Shown here in pieces: positions 48,963-60,655 of a stretch of 64,000 nt of DNA. Source of the stretch: Halorientalis sp. LT38. GTDB lineage: Archaea; Halobacteriota; Halobacteria; Halobacteriales; Haloarculaceae. The position numbers and the translations under genes are program-made. The notes beneath the pieces were generated by a model. It saw nothing but the letters and a program-made list of their open reading frames with translations, searched no databases and was not told where the DNA came from. The DNA is taken from the NCBI RefSeq assembly GCF_037031225.1, contig NZ_JAYEZN010000001.1, positions 248,001 to 312,000 on the forward strand. Direction: 5' to 3'. The first letter of the stretch is position 1. Each line of letters opens with the position of its first letter.

Positions 48963-50408
48963 ATGAACGTAGTGGTGGTCGTCGTCGACGCGCTCCGGGC
49001 GTCCGACGTGGGGTGTTACGGGCGCGACGCCGACATCACGCCGAACGTCGACGCGCTCGCGGAGGAGTCGATGGTCTTCGAGCACTGCTTCGCGGCCTCG
49101 AACAAGACCGACGTGAGCATGTCCTCGCTCATGTCCGGGAAGTACCCGCGAGAACACGGCATCACGCACCACGGCACCCGCCACAACGAGGGGAACCTGC
49201 AGCGTCTGGAGGAGCGGTCGCCGAAGTTCCTCCCCGAACTGCTTCAGGACGCGGGGTACGAGACCATCGGCGTCGACTGGATGGGGCGCTGGCACGAGTG
49301 GGGCTACGACGACTACGGCGTCGAGAGCGGCGGACGCAACGTCCAGGACACCGGTGACACCCTCGCCGAGAAGGCGTTCAACCACGCCAAGGACGCCGTT
49401 CTCGAACTGCCCGACCCGCTCCTGACGCCGATCATGAAGCAGTACTACCGACGCATGGGCTACGACGACTTCCGCGTCGACTGCGAGGGACTGACCGACA
49501 TCGCCATCGACCGCATCGACGACGCCGACGACCCCTTCTTCACCCTGCTGCACTACTGGGACGTCCACCCGCCCTATCTCCCACCGGAGGAACACCAGGA
49601 GCAGTTCGAGTACGACGGAGAGGACGAACACCTATCGAAGTACTTCGGCGATGGCGCGAAGGGACCGCTCTCGGCGGCGTTCCAGGCCTACGCTCGCGGC
49701 GAGCAGACCCACATGAGCGACGCGAAGGAGGCCTACGACGGGGCTATCTCCTGGGTCGACGAGCAACTCGGTCGGCTGCTCGACTACCTCCGCGAGGAAG
49801 GCCTCAAGGAGGAGACGCTGGTCGTCGTCACCGCCGATCACGGCCACAACTTCGGCGAACACGACATCTTCTCGGACAACGTCGGCCTCTACGACACGTC
49901 GATTCAGGTCCCCCTTATCGTCTCCCACCCGGAGCACGACCCCCACCGAATCGACGGGATCGTCCAGTTGACCGACGTCGCGCCGACGATCATGGATTAC
50001 GCTGGCGTCCCGATCCCCGACGACGTGCGAGGGAACGTCCTCCCGGAAACCCGGGAGTACGCGTTCGCCGAGAGCATCGAACACCGGATGCAGATGATCC
50101 GGACGGACCGCTGGAAGCTGATCGTCCCCCGCGACGTGGACTACCTGCAGAGCCGCCGGTGGTACGACGGCGACGGCACCCCAGAACTCTACGACCTGGA
50201 GGCCGACCCGGGCGAGACCACGAACGTCGCCGCCGAGAACCCCGAGGTGCGCGAGCGACTGGAGGGGATGCTCACCGACGAACTCGACCGGCAGGAGGAG
50301 AACGCCCGCTCGGGGAGCAGCCGTGACGTCGACATCGAGGACGACGACATGGACGACATCAAGTCCCGTCTCAACGCGCTCGGGTACGCCGACGACGGGA
50401 ACGTGTAG
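48963..50408 (+). CDS. Sulfatase/alkaline-phosphatase superfamily protein with Thr at the nucleophile site
   Basis: 481 residues. NVVVVVVDALRASDVGCYG (metal Asp) and VVVTADHGHNFGEHD (DH metal site) mark the superfamily. The usual C/S-x-P-x-R is replaced by TDVSMSSLMSG, placing Thr where the nucleophile belongs; there is no formylglycine-type Cys. This is like phosphoethanolamine/phosphotransferases of the same fold, so it may act on a phospho-linked glycan rather than a sulfate. The end has acidic DDDMDDIKSRLNALGY, typical of haloarchaeal members. Cytoplasmic as seen. Confidence 0.85.
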   Translation: MNVVVVVVDALRASDVGCYGRDADITPNVDALAEESMVFEHCFAASNKTDVSMSSLMSGKYPREHGITHHGTRHNEGNLQRLEERSPKFLPELLQDAGYETIGVDWMGRWHEWGYDDYGVESGGRNVQDTGDTLAEKAFNHAKDAVLELPDPLLTPIMKQYYRRMGYDDFRVDCEGLTDIAIDRIDDADDPFFTLLHYWDVHPPYLPPEEHQEQFEYDGEDEHLSKYFGDGAKGPLSAAFQAYARGEQTHMSDAKEAYDGAISWVDEQLGRLLDYLREEGLKEETLVVVTADHGHNFGEHDIFSDNVGLYDTSIQVPLIVSHPEHDPHRIDGIVQLTDVAPTIMDYAGVPIPDDVRGNVLPETREYAFAESIEHRMQMIRTDRWKLIVPRDVDYLQSRRWYDGDGTPELYDLEADPGETTNVAAENPEVRERLEGMLTDELDRQEENARSGSSRDVDIEDDDMDDIKSRLNALGYADDGNV

Positions 50409-50423
50409 GACTGGGAGCCGAGC

Positions 50424-51530
50424 TCACTCCTCGTCGGTCGCGTCGGCCACCGCGTTCAATGCTTCCAGATACGCGTCCAGGCTGTGGCTGCGCGTGAACC
50501 GCTCGACGTCGGCCTCGTCGGGAGCGTACTCGAACTCGCCGCTCCGGATCCGCTCGAGGGCGTCGGCGACGCCGGCGTGGTCGTCGGGATCCACGACGAT
50601 GCCGAACCCGTTCTCGGTGATCACGTCGGCGACCCGGAAGCTCGGGTCCACGATGGCGACGATCGGCCGACGCGCGCCGATGTAGTCGTACAGCTTGGAG
50701 GGGAGGTTGTGCTCGTTCCGCGGGTCGTCGCCGCCGACGTATAGAAGCGCGTCCGAGCCCTTCAGCTCGGCGACGATCTCCTCGTGCGGGACGAAGTCGT
50801 GTGGTTCGACGTAGTCCGTGACGCCGTGATTCGCGGCCGCTTCGGCGTAGGACTCGTTCCAGTCGCCGAAGAAGTGAGCCCGGACGTCAGCGTGCTCGCC
50901 GCGGGATTCGACGTAGTCGCTCAGCCCCCGGAGGAACGTGTAGGGCTCGATCCAACCCTCGTAGAACGACCCGGCGTAGGTGACGGTGAACTCCTCGTGA
51001 CTCGCGGGGTCGACCGACTCGAAGCTCTGCTCGTCGAACCCGATCGGGGGGAGCTTGCGAACTCGATCACTCGGCACGTCGGGATACGTCTGTTCGAAGT
51101 AATCGTCGGGGATCTGGATACCGTCGTACCAGACAACGCGGTCCGCGTGTGTGAGGATGTAGCCTTCCAGCCGCCGGCGGATCCGCGCCGCGACGGAGTC
51201 GGGTTCGACGTCGGGGTTCTCGACCAGTGGGTCCCGGAACTCGGCGATCCATGGGGTGCCGGTCAGACGCGCGAGAATCCCGCCGGCGATCTGGAGTTGG
51301 GGCGGATTGCTGACGGAGTTGATCACGTCCGCCCGTCGGGCCGCCCGGAGATTCCGTACGATCCCGAGCGGCGTCCCGACCGGAGTCGGCTCGACGTACC
51401 CGACTCGCAGGTTCCAGCCGCGCTCGGCCAGCCGTTCCGCCCGGGTCTGGAACTTGGCCGCCCGGCCGGAGTTCTCGTCGAGTCGGCGGTTCGAGACGAG
51501 CAGGACGGTCCGGGAGTCGTCGGCACTCAT
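50424..51530 (-). CDS. Glycosyltransferase family 4-type
   Basis: 368 residues. GT-B fold: TVLLVSNRRLDENSGRAAKFQTRAERLAERGW at the N terminus; FTVTYAGSFYEGWIEP, then KGSDALLYVGGDDPRNEHNLPSKLYDYIGARRPIVAIVD and ITENGFGIVVDPDDHAG (donor-binding Glu region). Follows the second sulfatase-like gene by 19 bases on the minus strand. Adds a sugar in the surface-glycan pathway; donor and acceptor are unknown. Confidence 0.88.
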   Translation of the reverse strand: MSADDSRTVLLVSNRRLDENSGRAAKFQTRAERLAERGWNLRVGYVEPTPVGTPLGIVRNLRAARRADVINSVSNPPQLQIAGGILARLTGTPWIAEFRDPLVENPDVEPDSVAARIRRRLEGYILTHADRVVWYDGIQIPDDYFEQTYPDVPSDRVRKLPPIGFDEQSFESVDPASHEEFTVTYAGSFYEGWIEPYTFLRGLSDYVESRGEHADVRAHFFGDWNESYAEAAANHGVTDYVEPHDFVPHEEIVAELKGSDALLYVGGDDPRNEHNLPSKLYDYIGARRPIVAIVDPSFRVADVITENGFGIVVDPDDHAGVADALERIRSGEFEYAPDEADVERFTRSHSLDAYLEALNAVADATDEE

Positions 51531-51549: not shown

Positions 51550-52905
51550 TCACTCCTTGTATCCCAGGTCGCGGAGTCGCGCTTTCACGTCCTCGTCCAT
51601 CTCGACCTCGACGAGGTCCGAACCCGTCTCGTCGATGGCCCGGACGTGGTCGTCGATCGTCTCGCCCAGTCGCTCGGCGACCTCGGGGTGGTCGTCGATC
51701 ACGTTCCGGTTCTCGTCGGGGTCCGCCTCGAGGTCGTATAGCTCCTCGCCGGAGTCGCGGCGGACGAACTTCCACTCCTCGTCGCGGTAGCCGAACCGGT
51801 TCTCCCCCTGTCGGTCGCTCCAGTCGCCGATGACGTGAGTCCGGGGCCAGTCGCCGCCCTCGACGATGGGCCTGACGCTCCACCCCTGGAAGGCATCGGG
51901 GACCTCGAGTCCCGCGTAGTCGACGAGAGTTGCCGGGACGTCCTGCAGGCCCACGAGTTCGTCGTACCGGCCCGAGCCCTCGATCCCGCCGAGGAAGAGC
52001 GGCACCTGCATCACCTCGTCGTAGAAGTGCGTGTAGTGGCTGAACTGGCCGTGATCGAGGAACTCCTCTCCGTGGTCGGCGGTGATCGCCGTCACCGGCT
52101 CTTCGCCCCAGGCCTCGGTGACCTCCTCGATCAGCCGGCCGATCTCGGCGTCCGTGTACTTGATCTCCGCGTCGTAGAGGTCGACGATCTCTTCGAGCTC
52201 CGAATCCGTGACGTTCTCCGGTTCCTCGATCATCTTCCGGCGGAGCTTGATCGACCGGTTCTCGGAGATGGGGTCGTCGCGGAACTCCCGCTGGTACTCG
52301 GCGGGCGGGACGTACGGGTGGTGGACGTCCATGTAGTGGACCCAGAGGAATCGCGGGCCACCCTCGTCTGCCGTCTCGACCCACTCCAGCGCGTTGTCCG
52401 TGATCTCCGTGGCGGTGTCGTAGGCCGACCCGACGTTAATGCCGGCGGTCCGTTCCGCGGTGTCGAACGCGGAGGCGAGGAGCTTGTAGAGCAGACCGTC
52501 CTGATCGAGTCGGTCCTTGACGAACTGTCGGATCCGGGCCGTCGTCCCCGGGTCGGTCTTCGAGTCGTAGAAGAAGTCGAAGCCGCGGTCGTAGCCGAAG
52601 TCGGCGGAGAGATAGAGATTGGAGTGGAAGCCGGCCGTCTGGTAGCCGCCGTCGTCGAACACCTCGGCGACCATCGTGCGGCCCTCGGTCATCATCTCGA
52701 AGCCGCCGTGCATGAGGGCGTGCGAGGACGACATGATGGAGGGGAAGGAGGGGCGCGTGCTGCAGGCGTGGGCGAAGGTCCGCTCGAACGTGTGCCCGTC
52801 GGCGGCGAACTCGTCGATCACCGGCGTCGTGTCCCGATCGTACCCGAAACACCCGACGTGATCCGCGCGCAGAGAATCGATCGTGATCAGCAACACGTCT
52901 TTCAT
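51550..52905 (-). CDS. Second sulfatase/alkaline-phosphatase superfamily protein (Thr variant)
   Basis: 451 residues. DVLLITIDSLRADHVGCFGYDRDTTP with TRPSFPSIMSS as active-site segment: a Thr sits at the nucleophile position (T-R-P-S-F), and a Cys three residues before it is probably not the nucleophile. VTAITADHGEEFLDHG supplies metal ligands. About 35% longer in the middle than minimal members. Operon partner of the GT4 gene. Likely a phospho- or sulfo-transferase/hydrolase on a glycan; not settled by sequence. Confidence 0.85.
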   Translation of the reverse strand: MKDVLLITIDSLRADHVGCFGYDRDTTPVIDEFAADGHTFERTFAHACSTRPSFPSIMSSSHALMHGGFEMMTEGRTMVAEVFDDGGYQTAGFHSNLYLSADFGYDRGFDFFYDSKTDPGTTARIRQFVKDRLDQDGLLYKLLASAFDTAERTAGINVGSAYDTATEITDNALEWVETADEGGPRFLWVHYMDVHHPYVPPAEYQREFRDDPISENRSIKLRRKMIEEPENVTDSELEEIVDLYDAEIKYTDAEIGRLIEEVTEAWGEEPVTAITADHGEEFLDHGQFSHYTHFYDEVMQVPLFLGGIEGSGRYDELVGLQDVPATLVDYAGLEVPDAFQGWSVRPIVEGGDWPRTHVIGDWSDRQGENRFGYRDEEWKFVRRDSGEELYDLEADPDENRNVIDDHPEVAERLGETIDDHVRAIDETGSDLVEVEMDEDVKARLRDLGYKE

Positions 52906-52997: not shown

Positions 52998-54164
52998 TCA
53001 CTCGATCACGCCGTCCTCGCGAAGCGCGTCCAGCCGGTCCCGATCGTACCCCACCGCGGACAGGACGGCTTCAGTGTGTTCGCCGTGGCCCGGCGCCGGG
53101 CCGGTTTCGCGATCCGATCCCTCGGAACACTGCGCGGGGAAGCCGACCCGGGGGACCGGTCCGGAGCGGTCGAGCAGATCACGGGCCGTGGCGTGCTCCG
53201 AGTCGAGAGCCTCGGCCGGTGTGTGCACGGGAGCGACCATCGCCTCCACGTCCCCGAGCGCGTCTTCCCACTCGTCCCGAGTCCGGTCGGCGAACAGCGC
53301 CGTTAGTTCCTCGCGCAGGGCCTCGCGTTCGGCCGGGTCCATGGTCATGTGAGCGTCCGCGAGGTCCTCGCGCTCGACGGCCTCGCAGAACGACTCCCAG
53401 AACTTGGGTTCGAGGGCGGCGAGCGTGACGTACCCGCCGTCCGCGGTCTCGTAGACGTCGTACCAGGGGAGGTCACCGGTGAGTTCCGTCTCGCCAGGCC
53501 TCGGGTCGCCGCCGGTGAGTGCGTCGTGGGCGACGGCCTGTGAGAACGACGCCACCACGTCGGTCATCGCCACGTCGACGTACTCGCCGCCGGTGTTGCC
53601 CAGTTCCCGCGAGAGCAGCGCGCCGACGATAGAGAAAGCGGCGAACAGTCCGCCGGCCATGTCGCCGACGGGGTAGCCGGGCATCTGGGGTTTGTGCTCC
53701 TCGTCCGCCCGAGTCATATCCAGCAGGCCGGCCATGCCGACGTAGTTGAGGTCGTGGCCCACCCGGTCGGCGTACGGGCCCTCCTGGCCGAAGCCAGACA
53801 ACGAGCAGTAGACGACCTCGGGGTTGCGCTCGCGAACCGAGTCGTAGTCGACGCCGAGGCGGTCGACGACGCCGGGCCGGAACTGCTCGAACACCACGTC
53901 GGCCTCGGCCGCCAGATCCAGGAACGCCTCGCGGCCCCGGTCGGACTTGAGGTCGAGAGCGACGCTTCGCTTCCCCCGGTTGACCGCGTCGAAGATGGCG
54001 CCGACGCCCTCGTCGGTGTAGGGCGGGAGCATCCGGGCGTAGTCGCCGCCTTCCGCGTCCTCCACCTTGATCACGTCGGCACCGGCGTCTGCGAGCAACT
54101 GGGTCGCGTAGGGACCGGGCAACAGTCGGGAGAGATCGAGAATCCTGACTCCGTCGAGTCGCAT
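52998..54164 (-). CDS. CaiB/BaiF family CoA transferase
   Basis: 388 residues. Family III CoA-transferase: LDGVRILDLSRLLPGPYATQLLADAGADVIKVE, YCSLSGFGQEGPYADR, VDVAMTDVVASFSQAVAHDALTGG and VMAPVHTPAEAL-like MVAPVHTPAEALDSEH. Moves CoA between acids through an anhydride on a conserved Asp. Substrate unknown; an acyl-CoA dehydrogenase and acyl-CoA synthetase gene lie within 10 kb. Confidence 0.93.
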   Translation of the reverse strand: MRLDGVRILDLSRLLPGPYATQLLADAGADVIKVEDAEGGDYARMLPPYTDEGVGAIFDAVNRGKRSVALDLKSDRGREAFLDLAAEADVVFEQFRPGVVDRLGVDYDSVRERNPEVVYCSLSGFGQEGPYADRVGHDLNYVGMAGLLDMTRADEEHKPQMPGYPVGDMAGGLFAAFSIVGALLSRELGNTGGEYVDVAMTDVVASFSQAVAHDALTGGDPRPGETELTGDLPWYDVYETADGGYVTLAALEPKFWESFCEAVEREDLADAHMTMDPAEREALREELTALFADRTRDEWEDALGDVEAMVAPVHTPAEALDSEHATARDLLDRSGPVPRVGFPAQCSEGSDRETGPAPGHGEHTEAVLSAVGYDRDRLDALREDGVIE

Positions 54165-54309: not shown

Positions 54310-54315
54310 TTTATT
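54310..54315 (+). promoter_or_regulatory. TATA box of the repeat-protein operon
   Basis: TTTATT, centred about 28 bases before GTG 54341. Confidence 0.5.
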
Positions 54316-54340: not shown

Positions 54341-54448
54341 GTGCCGTTTCTGCTCACACCCCACGGTGAAGTCACGATGTCCACAGAAGCCCACCAAACA
54401 GAGGGAGTACGGCTGCGCCCCCGACCGAGTCGGGGTGACCAGACATGA
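54341..54448 (+). CDS. 35-codon leaderless ORF coupled to the repeat-protein gene
   Basis: GTG 54341 lies at the predicted transcript start; ATG 54377 is a second in-frame start with GGTGA seven bases before it. The stop overlaps the next ATG as ATGA (54445-54448). The peptide ends GVRLRPRPSRGDQT and has no recognised domain. Position and overlap suggest translational coupling to the repeat protein. Confidence 0.4.
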   Translation: MPFLLTPHGEVTMSTEAHQTEGVRLRPRPSRGDQT

Positions 54449-56565
54449 GAGCACACACGGCAGTCCTGGGAGCCGCGATTCTGGTCCTGGGCGGCCTCGC
54501 GATACTCGCCCTGGGCGGTCCGGCGACGCTCCTCGACGGCCAGGGGGACGAGGCCGTGGCCGACGGTCAGGGCGACGCCGACGGGGAGGCGGCGATCCAG
54601 CGCTACGACGACGAGTTGCGCGACCTCGCGGCAGTCAGCAGTCAGGGATCGGCCGGGGAGTCGGCCGCGGACGGGCAGGAAGGGCCCGACGCCGCGCAAG
54701 CGGGCGCGCGAGCCGGCGCCCAACTCGCGCAGGAACAGGGCGTGAACGTGAGCCAGGAGCAGATCGACGCGGCGGCCGACGCGGCCGCGACGGCCGCGAG
54801 CCAGCGCCAGGACGCTGACGTCGAGCAGATCCAGGCCGCCGCGAAGGGTGCGACGCACGGCGCCCTCGTCCAGCGGCAGGACGCCGACGTCGAGCAAATT
54901 CAGTCCGTCGTCTACGGCGGCGCGGTCGGTGCGCTGTCGCAGACGCAGAACGCCGACGTCAGACAGGTGCAGGCTGCTGCCCATGGCGCCAGCCACGGCG
55001 CGCTCGCACAGCGCCAGAACGTGACCGTCGACCAGCGGCAGTTCGTCGCGGCGGGGGCCGCCGCTGGCGCGGTCGAAGCGGCGGTCCAGAAGCAACAGGT
55101 CGGCGTCAGTCAGATCCAGGAAGCTGCCCAGGGCGGGGCCTACGGCGCCCTCGTCCAGACCCAGCGGGTGACTGTCGAACAGTTGCAGGCCGCAGCCTTC
55201 GGGAGCGCGGGCGGCGCCGTCACCGACGACGAAGCGGACCCCAAGAAGGTGCAGGACGCCGCCATCGGCGGCGCGAAGGGCGCGCTCGTCCAGAGCCAGC
55301 GGGCCAGCGTCGAGCAGGTGCAGGCCGCCGCACGCGGCGGGACCGAGGGCGCGATCGTGCAGCGACAGCGCGTGACGATCACCCAGCTGCAACAGGCCGC
55401 GGCGGGTGGGGCCGAAGGGGCGATCTCCCAGCACCAGTCCGCCACGGTCGAGCAGATCCAGGCCGCGGCGTCGGGCGCCGCGCGGGGCACCCTGACGCAG
55501 GTGCAGGTCGTCAACGTCGTCCAGATCCAGCAGGCTGCGACCGGTGCGGCCGCCGGCGCCGCGGCCGCCGCGAGTCAGCAACAGGCCGCCACCGTCGAGC
55601 AGATCCAGGCCGCGGCGGCGGGCGCAGGTGAGGGCGCCGTCGTCCAGATTCAGGTCGTCAATATCGTCCAGATCCAGGCCATCACGCAGGGCGCAGCCGA
55701 GGGGGCGCTCTCCCAGGCACAGGACGCGAGCGCCGAGCAGATCCAGGCCGCCGCACGAGGGGCCTGTGCGGGTGCGACGGAACTGAGTCAGCGCCAGGAG
55801 GTGAGCGTCACTCAGCTCCAGGAGATCGCCAGCGAATCTGCCGCATCGGCGGCCGACGAGGCAGCCCAGGAGGGGATCACCGACACGGAGGAGATCGCCT
55901 CGAACGCCGAATCGGCCGTGACCGACGACGCCGAGGCCGAGGACGAGCAGGAACTCGAGAGTCTGAACCTGACCCAGGACGAGGCGAACGTGACCGTCGA
56001 GAACCCCAACGACGTGGCGGTCGTCGTGACGGTGACGAGGACCGACGGGACGGGCGAGCCGCTCTTGCTCGACGTGCCAGCGGGAGAGAACGTGACCGAC
56101 CTGCTCGATCCCGGCGAGTACGAGGTGACCGCCGAGACCGAAGCCGGCGATCCCGTCCCGGTCAATGGCGAGGAACGGCTGGTGATCGAGATCGAGGAGC
56201 CGACGACGCCGACGACTACTGAGACCCCGACCGAAACCGAGACGCCAACGGAGACACCGACGGAAACTGAGACGCCGACGGAGACGCCGACGACCACTGA
56301 AACCCCGACCGAAACCGAGACTGAAACCCCGACCGAGACACCAGTCGAAGAAGAGACGCCGACCGAACCCACCGAACCGGAGACGGAGGAGCCGGTCGAA
56401 CCCGAAACCGAAGAGCCCGAAGAGCCCGTGACGGAGGAGCCCGTCGAACCCGAAACCGAAGAGCCGGAACCCGAGGAGCCCGCGACGGAGGAGCCCGAGG
56501 AGCCCGAAACCGAGGAACCGGAACCCGAAGAACCCGAGGAAACCGAGCCACCGGAAGCGGAGTAA
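54445..56565 (+). CDS. Exported repeat protein with about fifteen 23-residue Q/A/G repeats
   Basis: 706 residues. N-terminal hydrophobic signal (AVLGAAILVLGGLAILALGG). Residues 125 to about 462 are 23-residue units of the form VEQIQAAAxGAxxGALVQxQ; Q-x-Q pairs flank each Ala/Gly stretch, and only unit 14 has a Cys (GACAGA). A degenerate first unit (VSQEQIDAAADAAATAA) precedes. A beta-rich segment (VTVENPNDVAVVVTVTRTDG) and a long Thr/Pro/Glu tail (TETPTETETPTE and similar, about 590-706) end the protein with no membrane anchor. Probably secreted and glycosylated on Thr. The repeats could build a solenoid or amyloid-like fibre; this is inference. Confidence 0.85.
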   Translation: MRAHTAVLGAAILVLGGLAILALGGPATLLDGQGDEAVADGQGDADGEAAIQRYDDELRDLAAVSSQGSAGESAADGQEGPDAAQAGARAGAQLAQEQGVNVSQEQIDAAADAAATAASQRQDADVEQIQAAAKGATHGALVQRQDADVEQIQSVVYGGAVGALSQTQNADVRQVQAAAHGASHGALAQRQNVTVDQRQFVAAGAAAGAVEAAVQKQQVGVSQIQEAAQGGAYGALVQTQRVTVEQLQAAAFGSAGGAVTDDEADPKKVQDAAIGGAKGALVQSQRASVEQVQAAARGGTEGAIVQRQRVTITQLQQAAAGGAEGAISQHQSATVEQIQAAASGAARGTLTQVQVVNVVQIQQAATGAAAGAAAAASQQQAATVEQIQAAAAGAGEGAVVQIQVVNIVQIQAITQGAAEGALSQAQDASAEQIQAAARGACAGATELSQRQEVSVTQLQEIASESAASAADEAAQEGITDTEEIASNAESAVTDDAEAEDEQELESLNLTQDEANVTVENPNDVAVVVTVTRTDGTGEPLLLDVPAGENVTDLLDPGEYEVTAETEAGDPVPVNGEERLVIEIEEPTTPTTTETPTETETPTETPTETETPTETPTTTETPTETETETPTETPVEEETPTEPTEPETEEPVEPETEEPEEPVTEEPVEPETEEPEPEEPATEEPEEPETEEPEPEEPEETEPPEAE
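54817..55830 (+). repeat. About 15 tandem 69-base coding repeats
   Basis: The repeated unit is roughly 69 bases (23 codons) and diverged at DNA level, with several longer units (for example after unit 4 and unit 11). The variation argues for old protein-level selection rather than recent slippage. Confidence 0.85.
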
Positions 56566-56695: not shown

Positions 56696-57922
56696 ATGCC
56701 AACGTCAGACACGGGCGGGGACGGCGGGGTCGGATTCGGGACGACGGAAGAGACGCGCCTGATCCTCGACAGCCTCGACGAGTTCGTCGCACAGGAGGTC
56801 GAACCGCTCGCGGACGAACTTGGCGACACCTGGTCGAACCCGCGACGGCGGCACGAAGCGGACGGGCGACTCGTCCCGGAGGTGCGCGAGGCCATCGAGA
56901 CGATCCGGAAGAAGAGCGCGGACGCGGGCTATTACGCGATGAACCTCCCGGAGGAGGTTGGCGGGGAGGGCGTCTCGAACGTCACCTGGTACCGGGCGAA
57001 AAAACGCGTCGCGAGTCACGGCATCGGGTTGACCGAGTACGTCCTGGCGGGTCCCGAGGGCCCGAAACCGCTGCTCATGCAGGCAGAGGGCGAGCAGATC
57101 GAGAAGTACCTGAAGCCGGCCGTCGCCGGCGAGAAGTCGACCGCGTTCGCCCAGACCGAACCCGGCGTGGGGTCGGACTCGCCCAGCATGAGCACGCACG
57201 CGGAGCGAGACGGCGACGAGTGGGTGCTGAACGGCCGCAAGCAGTGGATCACGAACGCCCCGTACGCTGACTTCGTGCAGGTCTTCGCGCGGACGACGCC
57301 ACAGGAGGAGATGGGCCGCTACGGCGGGATCACCTGCTTCGTCGTGGAGGCCGACGAGTTCGAGCTGGGGTCGATGAACAACGCGGTTGGGTTCGAGGGG
57401 ATGCAGGCCGAGTTGCTGTTCGACGACGTGCGCCTCCCCGAGGATCGGGTGCTCGGCGAACCCGACGCCGCCTTCTACAACGCGATGGACTTCCTCTCGC
57501 TGGGGCGACTCGAACTCGGGGCCGAGGCGGTCGGGTACACCGAACACCTCCTCGAACGGGGCGTCGAGTACGCCAACGAGCGGGAGGCCTTCGGGCGCCC
57601 CATCGGGAAGTTCCAGGGCATCTCTCACAAGCTCGCCGAGGGCCGGGCACGGAACTTCGCGGCCGACGCCGCGGGGCTGAAGCTCGCCTGGCTGATGGAC
57701 GACGGCGAGCAGGCCATCGAGGCCTCGTCGATCTTCAAGTACCTCGCGACGAACGTCTACTTCGACGTGGCAGACGACGTGGTGCAGGTCCACGGCGCGA
57801 ACGGCCTCTCCGAGGACAACCCGTTCATGGATCACCTTCACATCGCCAGGATCCTGCGGGTCGTCGAGGGGACGGACGAGATCCAGCTCAACACGATCGC
57901 CAAACAGCTCGGCGTGTCCTGA
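56696..57922 (+). CDS. Acyl-CoA dehydrogenase
   Basis: 408 residues. FAD-dependent: FAQTEPGVGSDSPS (FAD/substrate loop), LNGRKQWITNAPYADF, the C-terminal helix region REAFGRPIGKFQGISHKLAEG and QVHGANGLSEDNPFMDHLHIARILRVVEGTDEIQ. The N terminus has an extension ahead of EETRLILDSLDEFVAQEV. Oxidises an acyl-CoA at C2-C3. TTTCAAG about 30 bases upstream fits a leaderless start at ATG 56696. Specificity is not evident. Confidence 0.93.
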   Translation: MPTSDTGGDGGVGFGTTEETRLILDSLDEFVAQEVEPLADELGDTWSNPRRRHEADGRLVPEVREAIETIRKKSADAGYYAMNLPEEVGGEGVSNVTWYRAKKRVASHGIGLTEYVLAGPEGPKPLLMQAEGEQIEKYLKPAVAGEKSTAFAQTEPGVGSDSPSMSTHAERDGDEWVLNGRKQWITNAPYADFVQVFARTTPQEEMGRYGGITCFVVEADEFELGSMNNAVGFEGMQAELLFDDVRLPEDRVLGEPDAAFYNAMDFLSLGRLELGAEAVGYTEHLLERGVEYANEREAFGRPIGKFQGISHKLAEGRARNFAADAAGLKLAWLMDDGEQAIEASSIFKYLATNVYFDVADDVVQVHGANGLSEDNPFMDHLHIARILRVVEGTDEIQLNTIAKQLGVS

Positions 57923-59788: not shown

Positions 59789-59890
59789 CCGGGAGACGGC
59801 TCCCGCGACAGTCACGCGGCCTCGCCAGCCCGCTCGTGTGAGGTGTCTGCGGACGGGACGCTTTTCTGCCTCGCCGCCGCACCCGGTCGT

Positions 59891-60655
59891 ATGAACGTCG
59901 ACGAGTCGGACGTGCGGGAACTCGCGACGGCGATTCGGGAGGCGGACTCGGTCGTCGCACTCACGGGGGCCGGCGTCAGTACGGCCTCCGGGATCCCGGA
60001 CTTCCGCGGCGAGGACGGCATCTGGGAGCGACACGATCCGATGGACTTCCACATCGACCGGTTCAGGGCCGACCCGGCCGGGTTCTGGGCCGATCGCGTC
60101 GAATTGCAGGCCGCTGCGTTCGACGACGGCGACGTCGAACCCAACGCCGCCCACGAGGCGATGGCCGCCCTCGAAACCGACGGCCACCTCGACGCCGTCG
60201 TCACCCAGAACATCGACGGCCTCCACCAGGACGCCGGCTCCGAGTCGGTGATCGAGATCCACGGCTCGGCGGCCCGCGTCGTCTGCCGTGACTGCGGCGG
60301 CAGGTCGGACGCCGAACCCGCGATGGATCGGGCGCGGGACGGGGAACTGCCCCCGACCTGCGAGGAGTGCGACGGGACGCTCAAGCCCGACACCGTCCTC
60401 TTCGGCGAGCAGTTGCCCGAGCACGCGCTCATGCGCTCGCAGGCGAAGGCGGAGAACGCCGACGTGTTCCTCGCGGTCGGGTCGTCGCTGACGGTCGAAC
60501 CGGCCGCCTCGCTCCCCCGGGTCGCCGCCGAGCGAGGGGCGACGCTCGCGCTCGTCAACCTCGAATCGACGCCACTGTCAGAGCGCGCGGACTTCGATTT
60601 CCGGGCGGACGTGACCGACGCGCTCCCGCGACTGCGCGACGCCGTCGCCGAGTGA
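59891..60655 (+). CDS. Sir2-family NAD-dependent protein deacylase
   Basis: 254 residues from ATG 59891. NAD-binding LTGAGVSTASGIPDFRG, TQNIDGLHQDAG, catalytic His in EIHGSAAR, zinc cysteines in CRDCGG and CEECDG, and VGSSLTVEPA. Removes acyl groups from lysine with NAD+. In archaea it can act on chromatin and on acetyl-CoA synthetase; the target here is not known. CTTTTC about 30 bases upstream fits a leaderless promoter. Confidence 0.95.
   Translation: MNVDESDVRELATAIREADSVVALTGAGVSTASGIPDFRGEDGIWERHDPMDFHIDRFRADPAGFWADRVELQAAAFDDGDVEPNAAHEAMAALETDGHLDAVVTQNIDGLHQDAGSESVIEIHGSAARVVCRDCGGRSDAEPAMDRARDGELPPTCEECDGTLKPDTVLFGEQLPEHALMRSQAKAENADVFLAVGSSLTVEPAASLPRVAAERGATLALVNLESTPLSERADFDFRADVTDALPRLRDAVAE

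Follow-up and report, generated by a model that had tools for sequence, protein, structure and literature searches.

The window analyzed here, a stretch of 64,000 nucleotides from Halorientalis sp. LT38, contains a gene for a 706-residue protein whose tandem 23-residue repeats are predicted to form a stack of helices. We propose that this protein is a cell-surface alpha-solenoid scaffold, borne on a stalk and presenting a conserved putative binding face; the proposal leans on the modelled fold, and we put its probability at roughly one half. The protein would be exported via its N terminus, and each 23-residue unit would then form one helix, with consecutive helices antiparallel and two units making up a 46-residue hairpin. 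About 16-18 of these helices are predicted to stack into an alpha-solenoid by packing of Ala and Gly, with conserved Gln at helix ends and turns, while a strip comprising H138, H184, E226/Q229/Y233 and K267 may bind an extracellular partner or ligand. The beta domain and the Thr/Pro/Glu tail that follow would serve as a stalk or spacer.

A broader claim, on which we would sooner bet against than for, is that the repeat family constitutes an undescribed, haloarchaea-specific class of extracellular alpha-solenoids, whose 23-residue Ala/Gly/Gln units each form a single helix and pair up antiparallel, and in which the H-H-E/Q/Y-K strip, running along one face of the eight N-terminal helices, is a family-wide site of ligand binding or assembly. 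The family occurs in about a quarter of the sampled haloarchaeal species and has no name, structure or assigned function. Acidic residues are usually thought to be required for solubility at molar salt. If the fold is right, this would be an extracellular helical-repeat scaffold that is soluble under such conditions while poor in acidic residues, with Gln in their place, and it would permit a test of halophilic protein design. The five conserved residues offer an immediate handle on function.

Layout of the gene and its product

The gene and the segments of its product are listed in Table 1. Of the window's four TTTATW sites, just one is on the forward strand, the possible promoter element upstream of the start codon. 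Export is putative and is read from the N terminus (MRAHTAVLGAAILVLGGLAILALGG), where hydropathy reaches a maximum of 2.65 over 16 residues, in keeping with the signal-like segment that a sequence-only reading of this DNA had described. Twin arginine, lipobox and a clear AxA site are all absent from residues 1-26; conventional Sec-type signals are present in relatives such as L064 and L053. The helical domain consists of a capping helix, 16 units of 23 (22-26) residues from residue 99, and C-terminal helices. It is followed, at about residues 503-580, by a beta domain where a beta-rich segment had been anticipated, and then by a tail of 130 residues, 42% of them Asp or Glu, with Thr and Pro besides. 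Hydropathy revealed no C-terminal hydrophobic segment, which bears out the description of a Thr/Pro/Glu tail without a membrane anchor.

Table 1. Features of the repeat gene and its product, by position in the window
Feature	Position	Strand	Basis or remark
Whole gene, 706-residue secreted (putative) helical-repeat protein	54445..56565	+	ATG start; 61 relatives with open frames
TATA-like TTTATT, possible archaeal promoter	54310..54315	+	Consensus only; 135 nt upstream of start codon
Signal-like hydrophobic N-terminal segment, residues 1-26	54445..54522	+	Hydropathy
Linker, residues 27-78	54523..54678	+	Low model confidence; pLDDT <61 over the modelled part, residues 51-78
Helical domain (predicted), residues 79-500	54679..55944	+	AlphaFold2 with 59 relatives, pLDDT ~77-98; unit parsing
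FN3/Ig-like beta domain (predicted), residues 503-580	55951..56184	+	Model strands; VIA comparison
Thr/Pro/Glu tail, residues 577-706	56173..56562	+	Ends without anchor
His138, unit 2 position 16	54856..54858	+	91% conserved
His184, unit 4 position 16	54994..54996	+	Invariant
Unit 6 signature QEAAQGGAYG, residues 225-234	55117..55146	+	Glu226 97%, Gln229 100%, Tyr233 88%
Lys267, unit 8 position 5	55243..55245	+	99% conserved

Repeat units and their predicted fold

Sixteen units can be anchored on VxQxQ, spanning residues 99-476; most are 23 residues long and a few are 25-26, and the family consensus is x-[VA]-x-V-[ET]-Q-[IVL]-Q-x-A-A-x-G-A-A-x-G-A-L-x-Q-x-Q. The earlier count of about fifteen 23-residue units holds insofar as the repeats are real and 16 are recognizable, but three of these (1, 8 and 16) are degenerate. 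Composition was compared within the window, against its 41 other ORFs: the repeat domain is 17.5% Gln, whereas those ORFs average 2.4% and none exceeds 5.1%, an excess which argues that the repeats are not due to chance. The 69-nt units share 60-81% DNA identity, TRF reported no 69-nt array for the gene, and comparison with the Halorientalis pallida orthologue gives a dN of 0.19 and a dS of 0.73, for a ratio of about 0.25. These values agree with the suggestion that the units have diverged in DNA and been kept in protein by selection.

The order of the units is also preserved. Against the same orthologue (L011), the colinear unit is the best match for 16 of 16 units, and in more distant members this is true of 5-11 of 13-16 units, where about 1 is expected by chance. 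This colinearity between species points to an old array of individually distinct units. Units at even lag are more alike than those at odd lag (permutation p 0.004 over all positions); over the variable positions p is <5e-5 for a position set picked after looking, and 0.001 without position 16. Given this similarity between every other unit, a 46-residue hairpin of two helices is probably the structural repeat. In Natrialbaceae members, eight-residue insertions of the form VEQRQRVT around residues 261 and 311 of the window protein lengthen the inter-helix segment, repeating QxQ. The 35 repeat domains contain 80 N-glycosylation sequons, a number that exceeds shuffles in some species only.

When given an alignment of 59 sequences of relatives, AlphaFold2 predicted one helix per unit, 18 helices in all between residues 79 and 500, and a C-terminal domain of six strands (mean pLDDT 90.3, pTM 0.79, four of five models above 86). 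An eight-helix fragment modelled alone reached a pLDDT of 89.4 and a pTM of 0.88, its five models spanning 89 to 24 and three of them being poor. The arrangement of the helices was deduced from DSSP strings together with helix and linker lengths, for example an 18-residue helix with a 5-residue linker, or one of 22 with a linker of 4. Linkers of 4-6 residues are too short to return along helices of 17-22 residues, and neighbouring helices should therefore be antiparallel; a parallel one-helix solenoid was dropped because such linkers could not span the length of a helix. The prediction thus describes tandem helix-turn units packed in register, as seen in unit-period helices, lag-2 similarity and colinearity. 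It supports the solenoid-like option that the sequence-only reading had held plausible, and the disorder that would have spoken against it was not predicted, the helices having a mean pLDDT of 90.

Alpha-solenoid repeat proteins such as TPR, HEAT, ARM, ANK and TAL effectors have been reviewed (PMC11514114), and the window protein resembles them as a predicted stack of helix-turn-helix units. It differs from TPR and TAL effector repeats, which are of about 34 residues, in having one helix per 23 residues and a 46-residue hairpin, and from the known alpha-solenoids generally in being putatively secreted, in its Gln ladders and Ala/Gly packing, and in the lack of a sequence match. Foldseek returned nothing below 0.001 for the helical fragment; for the full model its top rows were TAL effector repeats, weakly matched at a TMq of about 0.1-0.4, and VIA scored TAL effectors against the fragment at a Z of about 3.4. 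The solved arrangements closest to the eight-helix fragment are de novo designed helical repeats, of unrelated sequence and with scores within the range of common arrangements: the flat helix-turn repeat FD15 (8ugc; Z 7.5, 6.8 A over 180 residues) was the best VIA row, and DHR5/8/10/18 scored Z 6. No natural solved fold stands out for the helical repeats in these structure searches, which is no proof of a new fold.

Neither the repeats nor the whole protein matched a family in Pfam (E up to 1 for the window protein) or NCBIfam, no PDB sequence was related to the repeats, and no characterized family was matched, an outcome that would have refuted the sequence-only reading. Scanned against Pfam, the window protein together with 35 repeat domains gave only two weak or overhanging matches, neither to a solenoid family, and no paper on the repeat family was found in the literature searched. 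Helical tandem-repeat surface proteins are already known; the repeat family itself is absent from Pfam, NCBIfam, PDB sequences and the papers searched, so the earlier statement that no named family could be recognized stands.

A conserved face and competing explanations

By a weighted count over the modelled repeats, the only residues other than Q/A/G/V/I/L that are conserved above 80% are H138, H184, E226, Y233 and K267. The conserved residues sit at position 16 of units 2 and 4, at positions 9, 12 and 16 of unit 6 (E226, Q229 and Y233), and at position 5 of unit 8. The exposed stripe of each unit (positions 5, 9, 12, 16 and 20) is variable except on even helices 2, 4, 6 and 8. Most of 61 proteins, short TSP3 forms included, share the QEAAQGxxYG motif and two HG dipeptides spaced by 46 residues. 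The even-unit pattern was noticed after the fact, and four of four falling on even units has a chance probability of about 0.04; it is best explained by one putative functional face on the N-terminal half.

The main rival to the scaffold reading is a self-assembling helical envelope fibre, in which low-charge, Gln-rich solenoids would join laterally or end to end at high salt to give a filament, sheath or accessory lattice, and the conserved residues would be the assembly interface. The repeat domain has 9.3% D/E and 4.8% K/R, where D/E averages 17.3% in the other window ORFs, which is unusual for exposure to high salt and would suit such a matrix, as would the absence of an anchor from the window protein and from 55 of 62 proteins. 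However, the order of units is fixed, there is usually one copy per genome, and the position-specific residues of the N-terminal half look more like those of a defined domain than of an extensible polymer; we judge this assembly rather unlikely. A curli-like cross-beta fibre had been suggested by the alternating VxQxQ and QxQ segments, and raw entropy in the repeats does show a strong competing periodicity near 165 degrees, which arises from I/V/L exchange and the alternating QxQxVxV inter-helix linker. Within unit positions 4-20, reduced-alphabet conservation and hydrophobicity instead both peak at a helical 95 degrees per residue, and the predicted helices are of high confidence. Like the curli subunits CsgA and CsgB, the window protein appears to be secreted, with repeats of about 22-23 residues carrying conserved Gln and small residues, but it is predicted to be alpha rather than beta, and Curlin_rpt (PF07012) matched neither the protein (E up to 1) nor the genome (0 matches), whereas an E. 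coli control was positive. Nor do the adjacent genes, for a CoA transferase and an acyl-CoA dehydrogenase, have a curli link. The proposed likeness to curlin and the beta-fibre interpretation thus find no support, the repeats being predicted all-helical, and a cross-beta fibre is very improbable.

The strip could also be read as a catalytic or metal-binding site supported by the helices, given that exactly these polar H/H/E/Y/K residues are near-invariant amid a Q/A/G/V/I/L core and are kept in short TSP3-type members. No enzyme family or fold was matched, however, and the residues would lie across four even-unit helices at about 10 A per step, in a strip rather than a pocket, so we regard an enzyme as improbable. 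Hardly credible, finally, is a degenerate low-complexity protein with no fixed fold: the biased composition and the sporadic occurrence within the genus, with clean empty sites where the gene is absent, would fit one, but the dN/dS of about 0.25, the invariant positions over 59 proteins, the confident model and a tree that tracks host families all weigh against it.

Relatives, domain partners and genomic setting

Among 84,980 prokaryote species scanned, 62 loci were found, all of them haloarchaeal; neither this pattern scan nor a phylum sample gave relatives outside Halobacteria. With a repeat-only profile at 1e-25, matches were found in 109 of 391 Halobacteria genomes and 35 of 86 genera, usually as one copy each. 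Most matching genomes belong to one family, identified as Natrialbaceae through named loci, and the repeat family is present in most of its sampled members. Sequences group in the tree by host family (Haladaptataceae, Haloarculaceae, Natrialbaceae), with several long branches, which is consistent with mainly vertical descent. The genome of the window contains no paralogue: a profile search returned two weaker matches, and the one listed covers only profile positions 501-600, which are the DUF7282 part and not the repeats. Viral contigs and phage records held no relative, speaking against a viral origin, and plasmid mobility was likewise rejected, with two haloarchaeal megaplasmids only.

In relatives the helical module stays N-terminal and the remainder varies, the partner modules being tandem copies of the beta domain, TSP3 repeats, a right-handed beta helix, DUF7282, CAP and Thr/Pro-rich linkers. 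In VIA comparisons, the beta domain of the window protein is similar to FN3/Ig-like structures (Z up to 9.1, with 2.2 A over 67 residues for 7skn), and that of relative L005 matches PF05506, the C-terminal beta domain of phospholipase C, at 7.9e-14; relatives carry this type of module in tandem copies. The window protein, unlike phospholipase C, lacks the catalytic phospholipase part and has no Pfam match. In L059, L066, L067 and L071, a short helical module leads straight into long Ca-binding-type TSP3 stalks and retains most of the conserved residues.

As judged from domain order, this architecture matches that of a surface protein on a stalk, of which the window protein appears to be a short form. 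Fibrillar adhesins (PMC9210967) are similarly long, with an N-terminal distal module, repeated stalk domains and, in some family members, a C-terminal anchor; the likeness is one of architecture, whereas the N-terminal module here is a helical repeat and the window protein carries just one beta domain and ends unanchored. C-terminal hydrophobic segments trailed by basic residues occur in 7 of 62 proteins, including the Halorientalis pallida orthologue, through which some relatives may be tethered. In the members scanned, these anchors fall below the PGF-CTERM model, and the window protein, having no NCBIfam match, does not carry the PGF-CTERM signal TIGR04126; at least eight PGF-CTERM proteins are encoded elsewhere in the genome. 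Since it has no C-terminal anchor, a scaffold of the kind we favor would leave the cell, stay attached through its N-terminal segment, or dock onto the cell envelope.

The repeat gene lies between a CoA transferase III gene (52998-54164, reverse strand) and an acyl-CoA dehydrogenase gene (56696-57922, forward strand). Its occurrence is patchy within the genus: in four species without it, the same two genes are adjacent and divergent, leaving an empty site of roughly 80-200 bp, and such clean sites suggest that the repeat gene comes and goes as a single gene. There are no conserved operon partners, the neighbours varying by lineage. At many Natrialbaceae loci (L022, L032 and similar), divergent upstream genes resemble a biotin ECF transporter (BioY, ATPase, EcfT), as named by eye from sequence. 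Elsewhere in the window, sulfatase-family genes at 48963-50408 (forward) and 51550-52905 (reverse) surround a glycosyltransferase-like gene at 50424-51530 (reverse); they adjoin a lower-G+C stretch at 46-50 kb, and this looks like a surface polysaccharide region. A Sir2-family deacylase gene lies at 59843-60655 on the forward strand.
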